A stretch of 64,000 nucleotides of DNA from a virus. Position numbers and translations under genes: made by a program. The DNA is taken from IMG/VR virus record IMGVR_UViG_3300037148_000025, positions 1 to 64,000 of that record. One strand, given 5' to 3'. Position 1 is the stretch's first letter; every line of letters starts with the position of its first letter. This document shows positions 2,456 through 51,807 of this stretch, piece by piece. Under the pieces are notes generated by a model. The model worked only from the letters and a program-made list of their open reading frames with translations. It was not told where the DNA came from and made no database searches.

Positions 2456-3988
2456 TTACCTGATTTTTCTTCCGCTTGTCTCTGACACTGTAGAGACACT
2501 AGACACTTGCTCAGCATACTGGTATATGCCGGGATAACTTGCCGACAAATACTTCCCGGCACAGTCACGGCGTAATCCATCGATTAGCGTACCACTCGAC
2601 TGTGACACCGGTATGACATACGTAGCAGCGTCACAAAGTGATAGCTTAAGACGGTATGCCTTAGAGCAACACTCTTCAATTTCGCGGCCTGTCCATCCGT
2701 TGTCAGATGGGAGTGTATCTGATACCGGGATACTAAAACGCTCACGATGAATTGTCCATATTGATGCACGCTCTATGTCTGTTGGCAGGTCAAAGAAGAA
2801 AATGCCGTCACGGAATCTAGAGCGCAATTCAGGAGGCAAGGCGTCAATACTATTGCACGTGCCAATGCAGAGTACCCGCTTGTCTGATACCGCGTCTACA
2901 GTAGCAATTGCAGCGCGGAGGTTGGCCCCGGACGAACCGACAAGACTTGACTGCATACCGGCAAGGTCAAACTTAATAAACGGTATGCCATACGATGCAG
3001 CGATAGCTTTCGCTATTTGCGATTTTCCTGCACCCGGTACTCCGATAAACAATGCACCCCGCATTTTTGTATCTTCCATCCAAGTCAACATATTCTGTGT
3101 TAGTTCTTGTTTCACTCCGCTTGTGTCTGTGCTACTCCCTGCATAAGCTTTTTCAATCTCGTCGATGAAGATAATGCAATGCGGTTGCTCCCTGCCTGTG
3201 AGCAAAGCTTGCATATAAGCTTTAATGGTCTGGAGTCCACCGATAGCGTCTAATGACTCTTTACCATTGGACACTGATAAACCGTTAGTCTGGTTTATCG
3301 TTTGACGTTTACGACTCCATAACTCCTCGACATTAAGACTCTTGTGTTCAATGTCAATACTCATGGCGACACTTTGTTCGGCGGGAAAGTAAGGCAGTCC
3401 AATCAAGGCGTCCACTGCCTTGAGTAATTCATCGGCGTTAGGTTCCGGTAGTTTGGCGCATTTGAACGTATCGCATACCACGTTTTCGAGTGTCTCTCTT
3501 GTCGGCAACGGTTCATCTAGCACTAACACATCATGGGATAACTCGGATGGAAGTGTAGCTCCCTGTCCACAAAGCATAACTAGCATGTTACCGTGTGCCT
3601 TGAAGTCGTTGCGAAGATTCCAGATAGCTTGAATCACGTTTGAGTCAGACCAGTGAAGATGAGTATTTGACAAGAAAATGATGCAGTCGTCTCCAATTAC
3701 AGGGACTTCTTGCACATTTTTCTTACTCACTAAGCGTAGCGCTTCGATCAAGCTTTCAGACGCTACGGGTGTAGACTCCAGCACAGAGAAAAGCGTATTC
3801 AATACGTTTTTGCTCTTGGGAGTAATGGCTTGAAAGCCATTGATACAATCCCATAAAATCAATGGTGGAATATCATCGGTGAAAAGCGAGCGAATAGCGT
3901 CTACCGTGGACTTAGAGTCAAACGTTCGCACTGCGACAAGTGGAGTTGATACTTGTCGCGCGGCTGTGAAGCTTTTCAAAAATTCCAT
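2456..3988 (-). CDS. AAA+ ATPase with rearranged motif order
   Basis: 510 residues. The N-terminal 220 or so form a degenerate ATPase-like domain (LILWDCINGF, CIIFLSNTHLHW, VLVLDEPLPTRE). In the second half, the Walker B-like FIDEIEKA segment (about residues 271-280) comes before the Walker A GVPGAGKS (about 315-322), and is followed by a sensor-1/arginine-finger stretch (TCNSIDALPPELRSRF). In ordinary AAA+ proteins Walker A comes first, so the Walker B block appears to have been moved upstream. I recall similar phage proteins, so this is likely a subfamily and not an assembly error. It heads the operon with DUF1257, DUF2997 and DUF3150 proteins. The GGAG site is 11 bases from ATG, with a palindromic site just upstream. 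Confidence 0.85.
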   Translation of the reverse strand: MEFLKSFTAARQVSTPLVAVRTFDSKSTVDAIRSLFTDDIPPLILWDCINGFQAITPKSKNVLNTLFSVLESTPVASESLIEALRLVSKKNVQEVPVIGDDCIIFLSNTHLHWSDSNVIQAIWNLRNDFKAHGNMLVMLCGQGATLPSELSHDVLVLDEPLPTRETLENVVCDTFKCAKLPEPNADELLKAVDALIGLPYFPAEQSVAMSIDIEHKSLNVEELWSRKRQTINQTNGLSVSNGKESLDAIGGLQTIKAYMQALLTGREQPHCIIFIDEIEKAYAGSSTDTSGVKQELTQNMLTWMEDTKMRGALFIGVPGAGKSQIAKAIAASYGIPFIKFDLAGMQSSLVGSSGANLRAAIATVDAVSDKRVLCIGTCNSIDALPPELRSRFRDGIFFFDLPTDIERASIWTIHRERFSIPVSDTLPSDNGWTGREIEECCSKAYRLKLSLCDAATYVIPVSQSSGTLIDGLRRDCAGKYLSASYPGIYQYAEQVSSVSTVSETSGRKIR

Positions 3989-10613: not shown

Positions 10614-10692
10614 TGGGGTGAAGTGCCGGATTCGAACCGTGCGAAAACTGGATTCACAGTCCAGCGCATTAAACCTCTCTGCCAACCTCACC
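10614..10692 (-). tRNA. tRNA-His(GUG)
   Basis: Acceptor GTGAGGT/ACTTCAC with an additional G-1:C73 pair, which is diagnostic of His. The anticodon arm is CTGGA-CTGTGAA-TCCAG, and CCA is encoded. Confidence 0.93.
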
Positions 10693-10833: not shown

Positions 10834-11214
10834 TGGCCCGTTCTGTTTCCAAGTGGGCCAATCTCAGGTTAACTTACATTAACCAATTCTGGCAACATTT
10901 CGTTGCTAGTCTCATTGTCATTACTGACAGTGATTCCTGCAAGAAGTGCTTCCATTAACGTTGAATTTTCATTCGCAGTTATTGTTTTCCGCTGTTAAGG
11001 TAGTCGGCTACCTGCATGTCCACAACACTTAACCAATACTGTCGAAACCTTGACGTGCCCATAAATTTTATTGGTGGACACGACGGGAGTCGAACCCGTG
11101 TCCAATATTACTAATTATTGCTTCATACATGCTTACTCGCAACGGGGTGCTAGCCGCCACACTAAACATTAGACTATACTAATAGCCTTCTCCTGCACTT
11201 GGATGAACCCCGAA
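10834..11214 (-). ncRNA. ssrA: tmRNA, circularly permuted (two-piece) form
   Basis: On the minus strand the 3' tRNA-like part comes first: TAAGCATGTA, T arm ACGGG-TTCGACT-CCCGT, acceptor CGTGTCC, A and CCA (ending at 11072). After only 11 bases (11061-11071) comes the 5' part, starting at 11060 with acceptor GGGCACG, which pairs with CGTGTCC, then GGTTTCGACAG. A long H2 helix pairs CAGTATTG near 11040 with TAATATTG near 11105. PK1 (AGGTAG/CTACCT) and AATAACT precede a resume codon, GCG, at 10976. The tag frame runs to TAA at 10869: 35 residues, starting ANENSTLMEALL and ending ELVNVS. A hairpin at 10834-10860 follows. The 5' edge is approximate. Its job would be to rescue stalled ribosomes. 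Confidence 0.88.
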
Positions 11215-11221
11215 GATTAAA

Positions 11222-11332
11222 CTACTTTGACTCTTTCTTCAGCTTCTTAATTAGCTTCTTATCATCCTTCTTGTCCTCACGTTCAAACTTTCCGACAAGA
11301 CCCTTCTTTGCTGCTTTCTTCTTAGCTGCCAT
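11222..11332 (-). CDS. 36-residue Lys-rich peptide
   Basis: Starts ATG at 11332 with TAGGAGAAT upstream; 16 of its 36 residues are Lys (MAAKKKAAKKGLVGKFERED to the end). It probably binds nucleic acid or an acidic partner. It lies just before the tmRNA on the same strand. Confidence 0.6.
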   Translation of the reverse strand: MAAKKKAAKKGLVGKFEREDKKDDKKLIKKLKKESK

Positions 11333-11767: not shown

Positions 11768-11796
11768 ATTATACCACGTCTTTTCTAGTTTGTCAA
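11768..11796 (-). promoter_or_regulatory. Strong sigma70 promoter for the tmRNA/tRNA cluster
   Basis: TTGACA (11791-11796), a 17-bp spacer and TATAAT (11768-11773) match the consensus exactly on the minus strand. It overlaps the last codons of the HExxH gene and can drive everything to its left. Confidence 0.85.
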
Positions 11797-28368: not shown

Positions 28369-28464
28369 ATGGCTAGTTATTCACCATCAAGTAATGGACA
28401 GTCAAATCTGCCTCAGTCAACGGTCAAGTATTATGATAAAAAGTTCCGCGAGAATCTGAAGGCT
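28369..28464 (+). CDS. Major capsid protein, exon 1
   Basis: 32 codons (MASYSPSSNGQSNLPQS to FRENLKA), the typical N-terminus of this capsid family. AAGGGA precedes ATG. An in-frame stop follows at once (GCT TAA). The 5' splice site after GCT is set by P1 pairing (see intron 1). Confidence 0.8.
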
Positions 28465-28712
28465 TAAAATTTGGGTCTTCTAAAACTTGACTATATCGGT
28501 GGAACCGTGCTATAATGGACACATTATGGCAGACAATACCGAGGAAAGACAGAATGCTGCAATTAAACAACTTTTCACAACCGCATTCTGAATCCCTAGA
28601 GACTAATACGTCAGGAATTGTAGGAAATTTTACTACGATTAAGATAGAGTCCGATCTGCGTGGTGACATGCAGAGTGAGCCAACAGTGATGTTGGATTCC
28701 TAAACACAAATA
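28465..28712 (+). ncRNA. Group I intron 1 (no ORF) in the capsid gene
   Basis: 248 nt. P1: exon GAAGGCU pairs with GGTCTTC. P10: TTTG pairs with exon 2 CAAA. P6: AGAATGC/GCATTCT. P7 elements: AGAGACTAATACG and AAGATAGAGTCC. P8: GTAG/CTAC. P9: a TCTGC/GCAGA hairpin and a CCAACA-GTGA-TGTTGG hairpin with a GNRA-type loop. The last base by frame and P10 is A, not the usual G. The core resembles intron 2. Confidence 0.8.
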
Positions 28713-28934: not shown

Positions 28935-29918
28935 AATTAATCGGTTGCCGTTAAATGGTTCTATATCGGTGAACCTCTGCTTAGCAGACAATACCGAGGA
29001 AACTTGAATGAAAGAAAAAACTAAGGCGTATTTAGCAGGATTGTTCGACTCAGAAGGAGATGTGTCTATTAGTAGACATATTTCTAAAGAGAGAACGTAC
29101 GTTGTTAAAGGTAAAGAATATACTTACGAAAATTACACTTCATATGGAGTAAGTTTGGCAGTATATAATACATATTTACCTTTAATGAAATATTTAGTTA
29201 AGCATTTTGGTGGAACATACCGAATGCTACGAAAGGAAACTGAAGTTAGACAAAATGTGTATGCGTGGAAACCGGATGGTTCTAAACATGCACTAAAAGT
29301 TCTAAAATTAGTTTATCCTTATGTTGCAATTAAGAAGAATCAAGTAAATTTATGTATACAATTTTTAGAACTTGAAGGAGAGACAGTTCCAGAAATTAGA
29401 AAAAATTTGTATAATGAATGTTTAATTGCAAATTCAAGTTCCGTAACGACTGACACGAACCATATTGTTAAATGGAAAATTAATCTACAAAATGCTTATT
29501 TCTCCGCGATTTTTGATGGAGAGGGAACAGCAGCGGTATACCACGGTCCTACTATTTGGATTGCTAATTCAAATAAAAGCCTTCTGGAAACAGCAAAGAT
29601 TTTATTTAATGCCAATAATGTAACTGGCGGATATAGAAAAAATGCAAAATCAGATAGGTTACCTGAGTATAGAGTTTGCGTTCCTGTAGAGCAAATGGAA
29701 AAGTTTATTTTAAGAATACTCCCGTATTCTACAATAAAGCATGAACAACTTCTTTTGGTACTTGAAGCTTTAAGGGGGGTTTCAAAGGAACGGAAGAAGA
29801 AAATTCAAGATAAACTTTTTATGATTAAACATCCATTGTCAATAAAGATACAGTCTGGACTCACAAGTGATTGTGAGAATTCTCTAACAGAGATGTTAGA
29901 AGATAATAACAATATCAC
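28935..29918 (+). ncRNA. Group I intron 2 with homing endonuclease
   Basis: 984 nt. P1: exon ACGGCGAUU pairs with GGTTGCCGT. It shares with intron 1 the core CTATATCGGTG plus GCAGACAATACCGAGGAA. P6: CTTGAAT (just at the ORF start) pairs with ATTCAAG (near 29808), so the ORF is inside P6. S element AAGATACAGTC, P9 CTCAC/GTGAG and TCTAACA-GAGA-TGTTAGA follow. The P7 5' strand is not clear. The end by frame is C, not G. Confidence 0.75.
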
Positions 29919-29931
29919 GACAATACTGTAG
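29008..29931 (+). CDS. LAGLIDADG homing endonuclease in intron 2
   Basis: 307 residues with two motifs, YLAGLFDSEGDV (near 8) and YFSAIFDGEGTA (near 168), so a single-chain enzyme. It would cut intronless capsid alleles; a maturase role is also possible. The reading frame runs through the 3' intron core and stops 13 bases into exon 3. Confidence 0.93.
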   Translation: MKEKTKAYLAGLFDSEGDVSISRHISKERTYVVKGKEYTYENYTSYGVSLAVYNTYLPLMKYLVKHFGGTYRMLRKETEVRQNVYAWKPDGSKHALKVLKLVYPYVAIKKNQVNLCIQFLELEGETVPEIRKNLYNECLIANSSSVTTDTNHIVKWKINLQNAYFSAIFDGEGTAAVYHGPTIWIANSNKSLLETAKILFNANNVTGGYRKNAKSDRLPEYRVCVPVEQMEKFILRILPYSTIKHEQLLLVLEALRGVSKERKKKIQDKLFMIKHPLSIKIQSGLTSDCENSLTEMLEDNNNITTIL

Positions 29932-43326: not shown

Positions 43327-43968
43327 ATGTCTATAAATTTGAATAATAATCTTCCTGCTCCCCCAACTGGAGGAACAAATGTAAATTTTCAGGAAGATGG
43401 CAGTGGAAATGTCAGTGCATATGTTGGTCTTGCTTCAAACAAGATTATAACTGCTCCGGTTGTGAAGTCATATGTGCTGTCGGCTGCTGCGACTGCGGCA
43501 GGAGGCTCTACGGTTTATACAGGGACAATTGTTGTTCCTGTAAACAGTTTAGTAGGATTGCTTTTCACAGTTTCCGGTTTCGTAGCCACTCCTGCAAATA
43601 ACGGTACGTTTCTTTGCACCGCGAATAATGGGACCACCACAATTACCCTTGCAAATACGGCGGGGGTTTTTGAGGTTCAGGCAGCGGCGGCGATTTCCGG
43701 CTCTCTTATCCTTGATTGTAGCCTTGGCAACAGCTTCTTTGTTAACGTGACTGCACCTATAACAAGCATGAGTATAACCAACCCGACAGATGGGCAGGAG
43801 ATTACGATACTCTGGCAGCAAGATGTTACCGGACACGCTGTAGCAGTTGCTGGTAACCTATTAGGGACATTTAGTGTCACACTCACGGCAAACAAACATA
43901 GTTGTTATAAGTGGACGTACAATTTAGCGGATACTAATTGGTATTTAATTAATTCTAATAATATGTAA
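43327..43968 (+). CDS. Tail protein with NNG-F-x-C-T module
   Basis: 213 residues. The module VYTGTIVVPVNSLVG ... NNGTFLCTANNGTTTITL matches those in 30715 and 38221; a C-terminal beta part (NPTDGQEITILWQQD) follows. GTTTAAGT start context is weak, but the ORF is well packed. Confidence 0.6.
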   Translation: MSINLNNNLPAPPTGGTNVNFQEDGSGNVSAYVGLASNKIITAPVVKSYVLSAAATAAGGSTVYTGTIVVPVNSLVGLLFTVSGFVATPANNGTFLCTANNGTTTITLANTAGVFEVQAAAAISGSLILDCSLGNSFFVNVTAPITSMSITNPTDGQEITILWQQDVTGHAVAVAGNLLGTFSVTLTANKHSCYKWTYNLADTNWYLINSNNM

Positions 43969-43979
43969 GGAGAAAAAAA

Positions 43980-44729
43980 ATGTCATTTGATAAGATTTTT
44001 TATGGACCGCCTAATAGTGGTGCTCATGGTATTGGAGCATTAGGAGTAGATATTTCTAGCAAATCGTTGTATGTCTCAACAAGAAACGGTTGGGAACTGG
44101 CTGCTTCTGCAAATCCACCAATAGCGACTGATTCCGCATTAGGTGTGGTAGAGCCTGATGGGACAACAATTACAGTTACAAGCGGTGGAGTGATTTCAGC
44201 CGTTGGCGGCGGGGGTAGCGGAGCATTGACACAGATCGGGAAGGTTGTGGTTGGTTCTCCTGTCCCAAGTATTGCTTTCAATGCTATACCGGGAAGCTAT
44301 ACTAACCTGCAACTTATTATCAACGGACAGAGCAGTTCTAACGTCGGTTCACAGGATGATGTTCATGCAACTTTCAATTCCGATAGCAGTGCTGATTATG
44401 ATATGACATTTCTTGTGGGCAATGGTAGTTCTGCGGTAAGTTCACAGCTAACTGCTCAAGATTATTTTATTGTTGCTACACTTAATAATGTGGCAACAAC
44501 AGGAAAAGCGGGGTGTGTAAACTGCTTAATTTTGTCGTATACAGGGACAGCATTCTACAAAGAGATAATGTGCAATCAGCATTTTTGGAATGCGGGCTCA
44601 TTTTTGCAACCAATGCTAGTTTCTGCGGATTGGAACAGCACGGATGCAATCACCAGTATTTCACTTGTGCTAAATAGCGGTAGCAATTTTGTGGCAGGAA
44701 CGACAGCGACTCTTTATGGGATGCAGTAA
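43980..44729 (+). CDS. Tail fibre-like protein
   Basis: 249 residues. ALGVVEPDGTTITVTSGG is a fibre repeat that recurs in the next gene. The C-terminal part (YTNLQLIINGQSSSN ... TATLYGM) resembles fibre receptor domains. AAGGAG precedes ATG. Confidence 0.6.
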   Translation: MSFDKIFYGPPNSGAHGIGALGVDISSKSLYVSTRNGWELAASANPPIATDSALGVVEPDGTTITVTSGGVISAVGGGGSGALTQIGKVVVGSPVPSIAFNAIPGSYTNLQLIINGQSSSNVGSQDDVHATFNSDSSADYDMTFLVGNGSSAVSSQLTAQDYFIVATLNNVATTGKAGCVNCLILSYTGTAFYKEIMCNQHFWNAGSFLQPMLVSADWNSTDAITSISLVLNSGSNFVAGTTATLYGMQ

Positions 44730-48951: not shown

Positions 48952-51807
48952 ATGCCAACTCCAAGTTCAGCAGTAGTAGATACTCAAGATTCAGCGTCTA
49001 GCCCATATCAGGGAGTGTCAACTCCTCCTCCCGATGGCACGGCGGGAGATGTTGGTAACACATCTGTAGCAACTGCTCCAGCGCAACCGGTGCAAGCTGC
49101 ACAGCCAACTCAAGCAGCGCAAGCGACACAGCCAGCGCAGCCAACGCAGGCGACGCAGCCGGGGCAACAGGCACAGCCAGCACAAGACGGCAAACCCTCT
49201 CCTGCGTCTAAAAACGCTACATCTGTGACTCCTAATGCTCCGGTAAATCCCGCTACTCCTGATCCTTCTCTAGAAGCGTCCAAAAAGACGGCGTCAAGGG
49301 TTACAAAAATAGCACAAATTTTTACTGGTGGTCCCCGCTATTCCTATACGGTTGATGACTCTGGAAAGACGATAAAAACTGAGGTTCCCGTTAGTGGGAA
49401 GCATTTAGGTCTTGCTATTGCTATGGAAATGTTATCAGGAGCATTTGCAGGATTGGGAGCAAAGCCGGGTCCGAATTTCTTAGGTAACGCTGGAGCAGCC
49501 GGTCTTCAAAAAGGTGAGGAAATTGCAGGTCAGAGACAGCAACAGGATCAAGCAGCACAAAAACAGGCACAGGAAGATTTTGCAAATAAAGCACAAGTGA
49601 CTGAGACAAACCTTAGAATGTACTCTATGGCTCGTACTGTGGGGAATATGGAGGAAGAATCAACCGATAAGTATATTGGTCAGTATACTCCAACCTTGAA
49701 CTTGCTTAAAGAGAAGGCTCCTAACTTCATCGAAGGTCCGGTTAAGTATAGTGATTTTGCAAAGTACAATGTAACGGCGGATAATGCAATTCCATTTATG
49801 CGTGTTGCACGTTTGGGGTCAGACGGTAAACAGGTGAAGAATGCCCAAGGTGTACCACAATGGGATGTTGATTACTACATTGTGAAACCCGGACTAAAAC
49901 TTACTAATTTGTTCACAAAAGACGACATGGCTACAGCAAAAGAAATGGGATTGTCATGGGCAGGAAACGACTCAGTGATGACATCTCCAATCGAGTTAGC
50001 TAATTTCTTAAATATTAAGTCAAAGCTTGCTAGCTGGAATGTTGGTAATGCTAAAGTTGCTAGTATGTTTAAAGAGGGAGATGCAGCGGGACAGAATCCT
50101 CAAGGAAGTTCGGTAACTCCTACGAAGTCTCCTGAAATTAAAGACCCAAAAATTTCCTCATTAGCTGAAACAGCGGCTACGACTAATGGAGTTCGTCCCG
50201 AATATGTAAAGGCTTTGATTACACAAGAGAGCCACGGTAATCCGAATGCTGTAAGTCCTACAGGAGCCAAAGGTCTGATGCAGCTTACCCCATCTATGGG
50301 AAACTTGTATCCTAAAAATCCATTTGATCCAGAGCAGAATGTGAATGCTGGTACGGCATACCTTTCTCAATTATTGAAGACCTATAAGGATGATCCTAAA
50401 AAAGCTTTTGCAGCTTATTATAGTGGTCCTTCTGCGATTGGCCCCAATGGAGAAATACAAGATACCGCCCAACACTCTGCGGAAAATACACAGAATTATG
50501 TTAATAGTGTGTCGAGTATGGTTGGTTTGGGAGAGAAACCATCACCTAACCCAAATGCTGTTCCTAATGCGGCCCCGGCTAATAGATTGTCGTTAGAACA
50601 ATGGAATGCCAAGAACCCTACTACAGGTTCAGATATGGAAGCTTTTATGGGAGCTATGAACGGGCTTACATCCGACAAAGCTGATATGATTGGTGACGCA
50701 CTTGCTCATCTTCATTCTACAGGAAATGACTCAGCGGCTAATAATATTGCCGCATTTATGAATCAAGGAAATCCTGATTTTATTCGTGATCACGACGATG
50801 CGCTTACTGCGCAGCGTTTGCAGGAAAAATCTGATGTAGGAGTGAAAGCAGCAGAAGAGAAAGCTAACTTTAAAGCAGCGAGTGATGCAAAAATATCATC
50901 TGCTCAGCAGGCATTTTTAGTTCCTCCTGATAATTTCAAATTTGATCCTAAAGTTTTTGATATGAATTCCGTTGATGCCAAAGCTGCACTGATTAAGCAG
51001 GGAGTCAAGATTCCGTTTAACTTTGATGCCCTGTGGTTAGTAGGACACCTTAAAGCACCAATAAGCACCATTCTTCCAGTGAGAACAGCGCAGAAATTTT
51101 CTCCCAATGAAATGGATGCTCAAACGGGTGCGTCATACATCAATGAGTTTATTAATCCTGGATATGACCAAAAGAATTATATACCGGCTCAGAAAGTACT
51201 TGCTGAGAATGCATCTGGAAACTCTAAGAATGGCATGGCTATTCAGAATGCTGGAGTGGCTGCGCAGCATTTAACTAATTTAGAGCAGGCAGCTAGAGCA
51301 ATGAATGGCGATTTAACTACAATGCCCTATCTAAACTCCCTAATAAATACTTATCATTTCCAGACCGGCGCATCTCCGGTTGTAATTTATAATGCAATTC
51401 TTCCAATTGCAATTCAAGAGGCCAGCAAGGTAAGTGCAGGCGGGGCGGTTCCATATGAAGATCAGGTAAAGAAGAATGAAGATAACTTTAAGGGTGCTCT
51501 TACTTTAGCACAGAAAGAAGGGGCTATCGAGGCTGTAACTAAACTGATGTATGGAAGAATTAGCGCAATTGATGAAAATACTTATGATATTACTCAGACG
51601 CATTTAATCAATGTTCCCAGTGGAGCAACTAAAATTTTTAAAAACTATGGGTTAGACACGCCGTGGGAGAAAAGCGGGGCCGGGCAACAACAACAATTTA
51701 AACCCAATGATACTTCTCAATATGCACAGATAAGCAAGTCCGGTAAAATTGGCATGGATGGTTCGGGTCATAAGTATATTATCGCAACGGGTCAACCGAC
51801 GCAGTAA
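48952..51807 (+). CDS. Internal virion protein with lytic transglycosylase domain
   Basis: 951 residues. Residues ~400-500 form an SLT domain: VKALITQESHGNPNAVS (catalytic Glu near 426), then AKGLMQLTPSMG and AGTAYLSQLL ... FAAYYSGP. A Pro/Ala/Gln-rich N-terminus precedes it. It would be ejected and open the peptidoglycan, as T7 gp16 does. AAGGAAAA precedes ATG. Confidence 0.88.
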   Translation: MPTPSSAVVDTQDSASSPYQGVSTPPPDGTAGDVGNTSVATAPAQPVQAAQPTQAAQATQPAQPTQATQPGQQAQPAQDGKPSPASKNATSVTPNAPVNPATPDPSLEASKKTASRVTKIAQIFTGGPRYSYTVDDSGKTIKTEVPVSGKHLGLAIAMEMLSGAFAGLGAKPGPNFLGNAGAAGLQKGEEIAGQRQQQDQAAQKQAQEDFANKAQVTETNLRMYSMARTVGNMEEESTDKYIGQYTPTLNLLKEKAPNFIEGPVKYSDFAKYNVTADNAIPFMRVARLGSDGKQVKNAQGVPQWDVDYYIVKPGLKLTNLFTKDDMATAKEMGLSWAGNDSVMTSPIELANFLNIKSKLASWNVGNAKVASMFKEGDAAGQNPQGSSVTPTKSPEIKDPKISSLAETAATTNGVRPEYVKALITQESHGNPNAVSPTGAKGLMQLTPSMGNLYPKNPFDPEQNVNAGTAYLSQLLKTYKDDPKKAFAAYYSGPSAIGPNGEIQDTAQHSAENTQNYVNSVSSMVGLGEKPSPNPNAVPNAAPANRLSLEQWNAKNPTTGSDMEAFMGAMNGLTSDKADMIGDALAHLHSTGNDSAANNIAAFMNQGNPDFIRDHDDALTAQRLQEKSDVGVKAAEEKANFKAASDAKISSAQQAFLVPPDNFKFDPKVFDMNSVDAKAALIKQGVKIPFNFDALWLVGHLKAPISTILPVRTAQKFSPNEMDAQTGASYINEFINPGYDQKNYIPAQKVLAENASGNSKNGMAIQNAGVAAQHLTNLEQAARAMNGDLTTMPYLNSLINTYHFQTGASPVVIYNAILPIAIQEASKVSAGGAVPYEDQVKKNEDNFKGALTLAQKEGAIEAVTKLMYGRISAIDENTYDITQTHLINVPSGATKIFKNYGLDTPWEKSGAGQQQQFKPNDTSQYAQISKSGKIGMDGSGHKYIIATGQPTQ

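Follow-up and report, generated by a model that had tools for sequence, protein, structure and literature searches.

The DNA considered here (the window) comprises 64,000 nucleotides of the virus record IMGVR_UViG_3300037148_000025, a contig of 89,414 bases. A circularly permuted (two-piece) tmRNA gene is located at positions 10834–11138 on its minus strand (Table 1). Along this strand GCATGTATGAAG...GGACACGGGTTCGACTCCCGTCGTGTCCACCA is followed by 11 bases, GGGCACGTCAAGGTTTCGACAGTATT... and a frame of 35 codons; the acceptor half is thus upstream of the coding half on a single strand, and the pairing between them spans the spacer. All elements named in the original prediction, which was made from the letters alone, are present, namely the acceptor strands, H2, the element GGTTTCGACAG and the resume codon GCG (10974–10976), which is preceded by AATAACT and followed, after 35 codons, by TAA at 10869–10871. 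The covariance-model search proposed there as a check also agrees with a permuted gene: cmscan matches the full model (1–213) of tmRNA_permuted RF04321 with 110.2 bits and an E-value of 1e-20, the gathering cut-off being 47 bits. The closest subtype model is beta_tmRNA RF01850, which scores 74.9 bits, below its cut-off of 84 bits. ARAGORN also calls a permuted tmRNA in the window, with a wrong coding part placed too far downstream (DEKYSIRG...). The twin contig IMGVR_UViG_3300048503_000010, belonging to a nearly identical phage, carries the same tmRNA base for base.

Table 1. Positions of the tmRNA elements and neighbouring features in the window.
Feature	Position	Strand	Remark
Predicted sigma-70-type promoter	11768..11796	-	TTGACA, 17, TATAAT, TG before; 12/12 match
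36-aa lysine-rich ORF (MAAKKKAAKKGLVGKFEREDKKDDKKLIKKLKKESK)	11222..11332	-	directly upstream of tmRNA
Acceptor piece (3' half of tmRNA)	11072..11138	-	encoded CCA at its end; 5' end of mature piece placed by conservation
H2 distal, 3' strand GCATGT	11127..11132	-	pairs with 11014–11019; covarying
H2 proximal, 3' strand	11103..11109	-	pairs with 11035–11041; covarying
T-arm ACGGG TTCGACT CCCGT	11083..11099	-	covariation in all five pairs
CCA end of acceptor piece	11072–11074	-	read from sequence
Intervening sequence, 11 bases	11061..11071	-	predicted to be cut out
Coding piece (5' half of tmRNA)	10834..11060	-	putative 3' limit, set at end of conserved post-tag hairpin
Acceptor stem 5' strand GGGCACG	11054..11060	-	with G3-U70; partner strand CGTGTCC
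PK1 pseudoknot AGGTAG/CTACCT + CCG/CGG	10989..11013	-	9 pairs
Tag reading frame ANENSTLMEALLAGITVSNDNETSNEMLPELVNVS	10869..10976	-	resume GCG, stop TAA; homologous to sister-phage tags
Stop-codon hairpin GGTTAA/TTAACC	10867..10885	-	resembles H5 of tmRNA
Post-tag hairpin TTGGCCCACTTGGAAACAGAACGGGCCA	10834..10861	-	conserved; PK2-like as in beta-type permuted tmRNA
tRNA-His	10614..10691	-	first of seven downstream tRNA genes, same strand

The extent of the gene proposed initially, up to 11214, should be shortened. The conserved AAGYAYGCAYGTATGAAG makes a start of the acceptor piece near 11138 most likely. In several relatives either the stop codon of an upstream gene or a promoter directly precedes the start of the acceptor piece, and in the relative L060 an 11-of-12 promoter ends ~10 bases before it, which fits a beginning near position 11138 in the window. 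The length of the intervening sequence varies from 11 to 154 bases among the relatives. The tag frame lies downstream of PK1 with its stop codon inside a hairpin, and similar hairpins are found at the tag stop in many relatives. Since most members, the window included (z of -1.3), show no exceptional folding energy in the post-tag region, the assignment of the stop hairpin relies on its position and recurrence. A conserved CCTGAG...GGCCCACTTGGAAACAGAACGGGCC element is situated at this stop as well. The post-tag hairpin is identical in the relative L056 and similar in many others.

The acceptor stem, the T-arm and both parts of H2 were scored in an alignment of 14 family members. Their cells are paired in 95.1% of cases versus 36–44% with the partners slid by 1–3 columns; changes on both sides are seen in 15 of the 25 pairs, and 0 of 500 shuffles are as good as the observed pairing. 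The acceptor stem keeps all its 7 pairs in 14/14 sequences, three of them with changes on both sides, and the alanine identity pair G3-U70 is GU in every sequence. In PK1, compared among the five members with a PK1 of the window type, the nine pairs are 100% kept and 3 covary. Two related phages (L256 and L257) have the T-loop TAGCATA instead of TTCGANT, with the T-stem kept.

It could be argued that the apparent permuted gene is an ordinary tRNA gene with a standard tmRNA behind it. Such artefacts do occur: RF04321 exceeds its cut-off in 9 of 297 Acidobacteriota genomes with no real permuted gene among the nine, eight of the matches (54–72 bits) being a tRNA gene before a standard tmRNA and the ninth being two standard tmRNA genes in tandem. 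Matches to this model therefore need a check for pairing across the spacer. In the window the T-arm/CCA strand, lying upstream, is paired with G1–G7 further downstream, and both change together in the relatives; the score reaches 110 bits, no RF00023 (standard tmRNA) is found among the matches listed in the window, and the 3' tRNA-like half is not downstream of the tag. Covariation across the spacer excludes the artefact, whose probability we consider practically nil.

The predicted promoter precedes a small ORF, the 36-aa ORF, the tmRNA and the seven tRNAs. As for the partner proteins of trans-translation, SmpB is encoded in none of 25 related phage records, hence the host SmpB must serve. 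Lon was not found in the phage records, and ClpP as a partner occurs in one record only (G079), where a ClpP-family protein at 49470–49937 (L258) contains one in-frame TAG and may belong to a stop-recoding phage. In another contig (L013) ARAGORN finds a tRNA with the anticodon CTA (Pyl) at 2891–2965, near a permuted phage tmRNA, which is a possible suppressor tRNA. Several other elements of the window deserve mention. An AAA ATPase on the minus strand at 2456–3988 (match to phrog_8638) has its Walker B (IFIDEIEK) preceding Walker A (GVPGAGKSQIA), so the domain is apparently circularly permuted. A group I intron (RF00028, 50.3 bits at a cut-off of 50) is located on the plus strand at 28369–28673, with an HNH endonuclease ORF (29008–29931, phrog_5046) downstream of it. 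The contig starts with a tandem repeat of ~61 bases (1–218), present in about twelve copies in the twin contig G001.

A DNA polymerase is encoded 1 kb upstream of the tmRNA, and its nearest isolate matches are those of the Tunturiibacter phages Tunturi 3 and Tunturi 4, isolated from Finnish soil (PMC11924767). The paper describing these phages never mentions tmRNA (PMC11924767). Each of them carries an unannotated permuted tmRNA over the RF04321 cut-off: in Tunturi 3 it immediately follows the DNA polymerase, which is also the arrangement in the window; the Tunturi 4 copy fills a stretch left unannotated just after a gene with an RF-1 domain (ArfB-like, GGQ). Small ArfB-like RF-1-domain proteins (GGQHRN) are encoded in 3 of 25 related phages, namely Tunturi 4 (L235), Tunturi 3 (L236) and G021 (L237); the stop codon of the Tunturi 4 gene (43946–44293 of its record) abuts the tmRNA, which makes the two a possible ribosome-rescue pair. 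The IMG/VR search with polymerase alignments returned 45 records, and in 24 of these 45, many of the remainder being fragments, a permuted tmRNA exceeds the cut-off. The phage origin originally assigned to the gene is supported. One further permuted tmRNA (L229) was found by DNA pattern. In total, at least 19 distinct related phages besides the window phage possess the same tmRNA gene. A DNA polymerase search of genome contigs revealed no prophage relatives.

By inference from Tunturi 3 and 4, whose polymerases show 49% and 39% identity, the window phage, which comes from soil, probably infects Acidobacteriota. A standard tmRNA over the cut-off is present in 30 of 33 named Acidobacteriota genomes, and all 28 of those standard tmRNAs read by ARAGORN have tags of 9 residues ending in AA, for instance AEPQFALAA and ANNNLALAA. 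As the sampled Acidobacteriota have the standard form only, the phages and their likely hosts have different gene forms. A recent acquisition from an Acidobacteriota host was considered and found to be unsupported, the sampled hosts being of the standard type. A Granulicella MAG (G065, contig 13) has tandem standard tmRNAs at 201907–202260 and 202339–202671, 78 bases apart (L187, L225); their junction scores 61.6 bits as a permuted tmRNA, and this arrangement is what an intermediate towards a permuted gene would look like.

The tag frames of the family were read after PK1 and then compared with ARAGORN, which agrees on the tags in Tunturi 4, L051, L052, L055, L056, L062, L229, L252 and L255. 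Translation would resume at a Val codon in Tunturi 3, L060 and L253, and the frames given for these three are putative. Among 20 distinct complete phage tags 17 have 26–37 residues and three have 11–14, i.e. the phage tags are mostly three to four times longer than those of the hosts. The 35-residue tag of the window was correctly recognized at the outset as lacking LAA: it ends in LVNVS, without the (A)LAA or similar AA end typical of a ClpXP-directed ssrA tag. The terminal AA is missing in eight members around the window (ends VMA, VLA, NVS and VKV). Outside this branch L054 ends in ATA, L229 in AGR and L255 in AGA, and the remaining nine end in AA. The short tags of L229 and L255 (AKTNTLAMGAAAGR and ANTNVLAMSAAAGA) end in AAAGR and AAAGA, that is, with residues added beyond the usual AA.

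In the polymerase tree seven non-AA records, one of them the window, group as a clade with support 100/99, the eighth member, L251 (end VKV), adjoins this clade, and 0 of 500 shuffles are as clustered as the observed non-AA tags. The sister tags, such as ANSTYDKMVAGLLAETSDVQSTELVMA, share YDKM or YDEM and the C-terminus LV(M/L)A. A selection test covering five sister phages, with the window's own tag outside it, gives an excess of changes at third codon positions (permutation p 0.012) and a pN/pS of 0.60. The window tag aligns with the sister tags along its full length, LVNVS replacing LVMA; the NVS end is found only in the window phage and its near-identical twin and could reflect drift, if selection for degradation no longer acts on the tag. 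The tags of the window branch are acidic (net -2 to -6, with conserved YDKM...LVMA), and those elsewhere are mostly basic (net +2 to +6, with conserved AKVIPF..RKVR...TAMLLAA). The window tag is not a one-off: its length is characteristic of the phage family, and the missing final AA of the window branch. A copying of the window tag from a phage protein was rejected, as nothing similar above chance is found among the phage's own proteins.

The long frame might be thought to result from decay of a bacterial permuted tmRNA, in which the tag stop was lost and the frame runs on. Indeed, the stop of the Rfam model aligns with GGA in the window. However, ALLAG around this GGA aligns with MVAG, MIAG and MING of sister tags that run on longer, and homology to the sister tags along all 35 residues means that the length does not stem from a recent loss of a stop. 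Moreover, the helices are intact and covarying, and the hairpin and the conserved CCTGAG...GGCCC element are found at the actual stop. Decay is thus a very improbable explanation.

The anatomy of the window tmRNA supports ordinary trans-translation with the SmpB and AlaRS of the host, and its predicted role in ribosome rescue is well supported. One precursor would be transcribed together with the neighbouring small genes and tRNAs, and host tRNA-processing enzymes would remove the 11-base spacer, after which the acceptor and coding pieces would stay joined through pairing in the acceptor stem and H2. The host AlaRS would charge the molecule through G3-U70, the host SmpB would bring it to stalled ribosomes, and translation would resume at GCG with the addition of 35 residues ending in LVNVS, as compared to host 9-aa tags such as AEPQFALAA. 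A tag which is long, acidic and devoid of a terminal AA should let the chains escape the usual ClpXP route; by analogy to Mycoplasma, where Lon acts, chains not sent to ClpXP could be taken by another protease. Degradation of the tagged chains would then be slower or pass to a different host protease, for which Lon is a precedent. At the same time, since the residues at its C-terminus are small and carry no charge, the tag may still be recognized by ClpXP or Tsp. On the whole, it is likely that the window encodes a working two-piece phage tmRNA whose non-AA tag diverts the chains from the usual ClpXP route. That the phage thereby overwrites the quality-control mark of its host, the long tag being unread by ClpXP and the chains spared or re-routed, is a plausible suggestion to which we give somewhat less than an even chance.

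Alternatively, the tmRNA may be active with a tag which does not serve proteolysis at all: truncated proteins of the phage, or those of the host, would be stable, and the RNA would compete with host tmRNA for ribosomes and SmpB. The eight window-branch members without a terminal AA are in line with this, as is the existence of the tRNA-like-domain RNA of phage DS6A; a similar molecule inhibits tmRNA (PMC4131195). Nevertheless, the C-terminus of the sister tags, (D/E)LV(M/L)A or GLVMA, is conserved and not random, suggesting that something reads the tag end, and most of the remaining family ends in AA; we regard a tag unrelated to proteolysis as rather unlikely. Less probable still is that the attached peptide itself is functional, e.g. 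binds a host protein, and owes its length to this. Acidic and basic tag types each have conserved stretches, as a functional peptide would imply, but most basic tags retain AA, as a degron would, and the lack of a similar peptide in the phage's own proteins also speaks against it. Diversion of the tagged chains from the usual ClpXP route remains the preferred explanation.

The trans-translation tag is nearly uniform across bacteria. Phage tags of 26–37 residues, with one branch lacking AA, would add a viral case of tag re-targeting to the bacterial one. For testing such long tags, both Tunturi isolates (3 and 4) exist together with their hosts. The family is also an additional phage lineage with a tmRNA gene of another form than in the likely hosts, and it illustrates that current annotation overlooks or misreads permuted phage tmRNA genes. 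The original prediction regarded a permuted phage tmRNA as at least rare, which does not hold in the sense of new: a 2022 survey of 133 unique phage tmRNAs lists 53 with the two-piece form, of which 50 come from marine or aquatic phages (PMC9004378), and an Rfam model for permuted tmRNA exists (PMC11915505). What is new is a family of these genes in relatives of Tunturi 3 and Tunturi 4; our literature search found no account of permuted tmRNA in Acidobacteriota phages.

Compared with bacterial permuted tmRNA (RF04321/RF01850), the window gene has the same gene order, tRNA-like domain, H2 and PK1, and it shares with the bacterial beta-type the post-tag hairpin with the CUUGGAAACAGAA motif; in contrast to them, the tags of its family are long and the likely hosts possess the standard form. 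The marine two-piece tmRNAs of Melnitz and the pelagimyophages (PMC9004378) are likewise phage-encoded and permuted, whereas their phages are different and mostly aquatic. Other IMG/VR contigs with a permuted tmRNA (L007–L013) have tags of 10–13 aa, unlike the 35 residues of the window. The standard tmRNA of Acidobacteriota (RF00023), which is the rescue RNA of the likely hosts, differs in being one piece with 9-aa tags. The DS6A RNA, little more than a tRNA-like domain (PMC4131195), resembles the window tmRNA in being phage-borne and possibly altering host trans-translation, but it has no tag frame, in contrast to the long one of the window gene.

According to a review, bacteria retain the ALAA end, the exception being Mycoplasma, which has an AFA end and no ClpXP (PMC3985003). 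The Mesoplasma florum tag is read by Lon (PMC8138137), and the review likewise attributes the reading of the extended Mycoplasma and Mesoplasma florum tags to Lon (Gur and Sauer 2008; Ge and Karzai 2009, as cited in PMC3985003). These tags resemble the window tag, with its 35 residues and NVS end, in being extended and having no ALAA end, and they differ from it in their standard, bacterial tmRNA gene and their AFA end. In Mycoplasma the change of protease accompanies the absence of ClpXP, whereas the hosts of the phages are not known to lack it. The window branch departs from ALAA in the same manner as Mycoplasma, in this case in phages.
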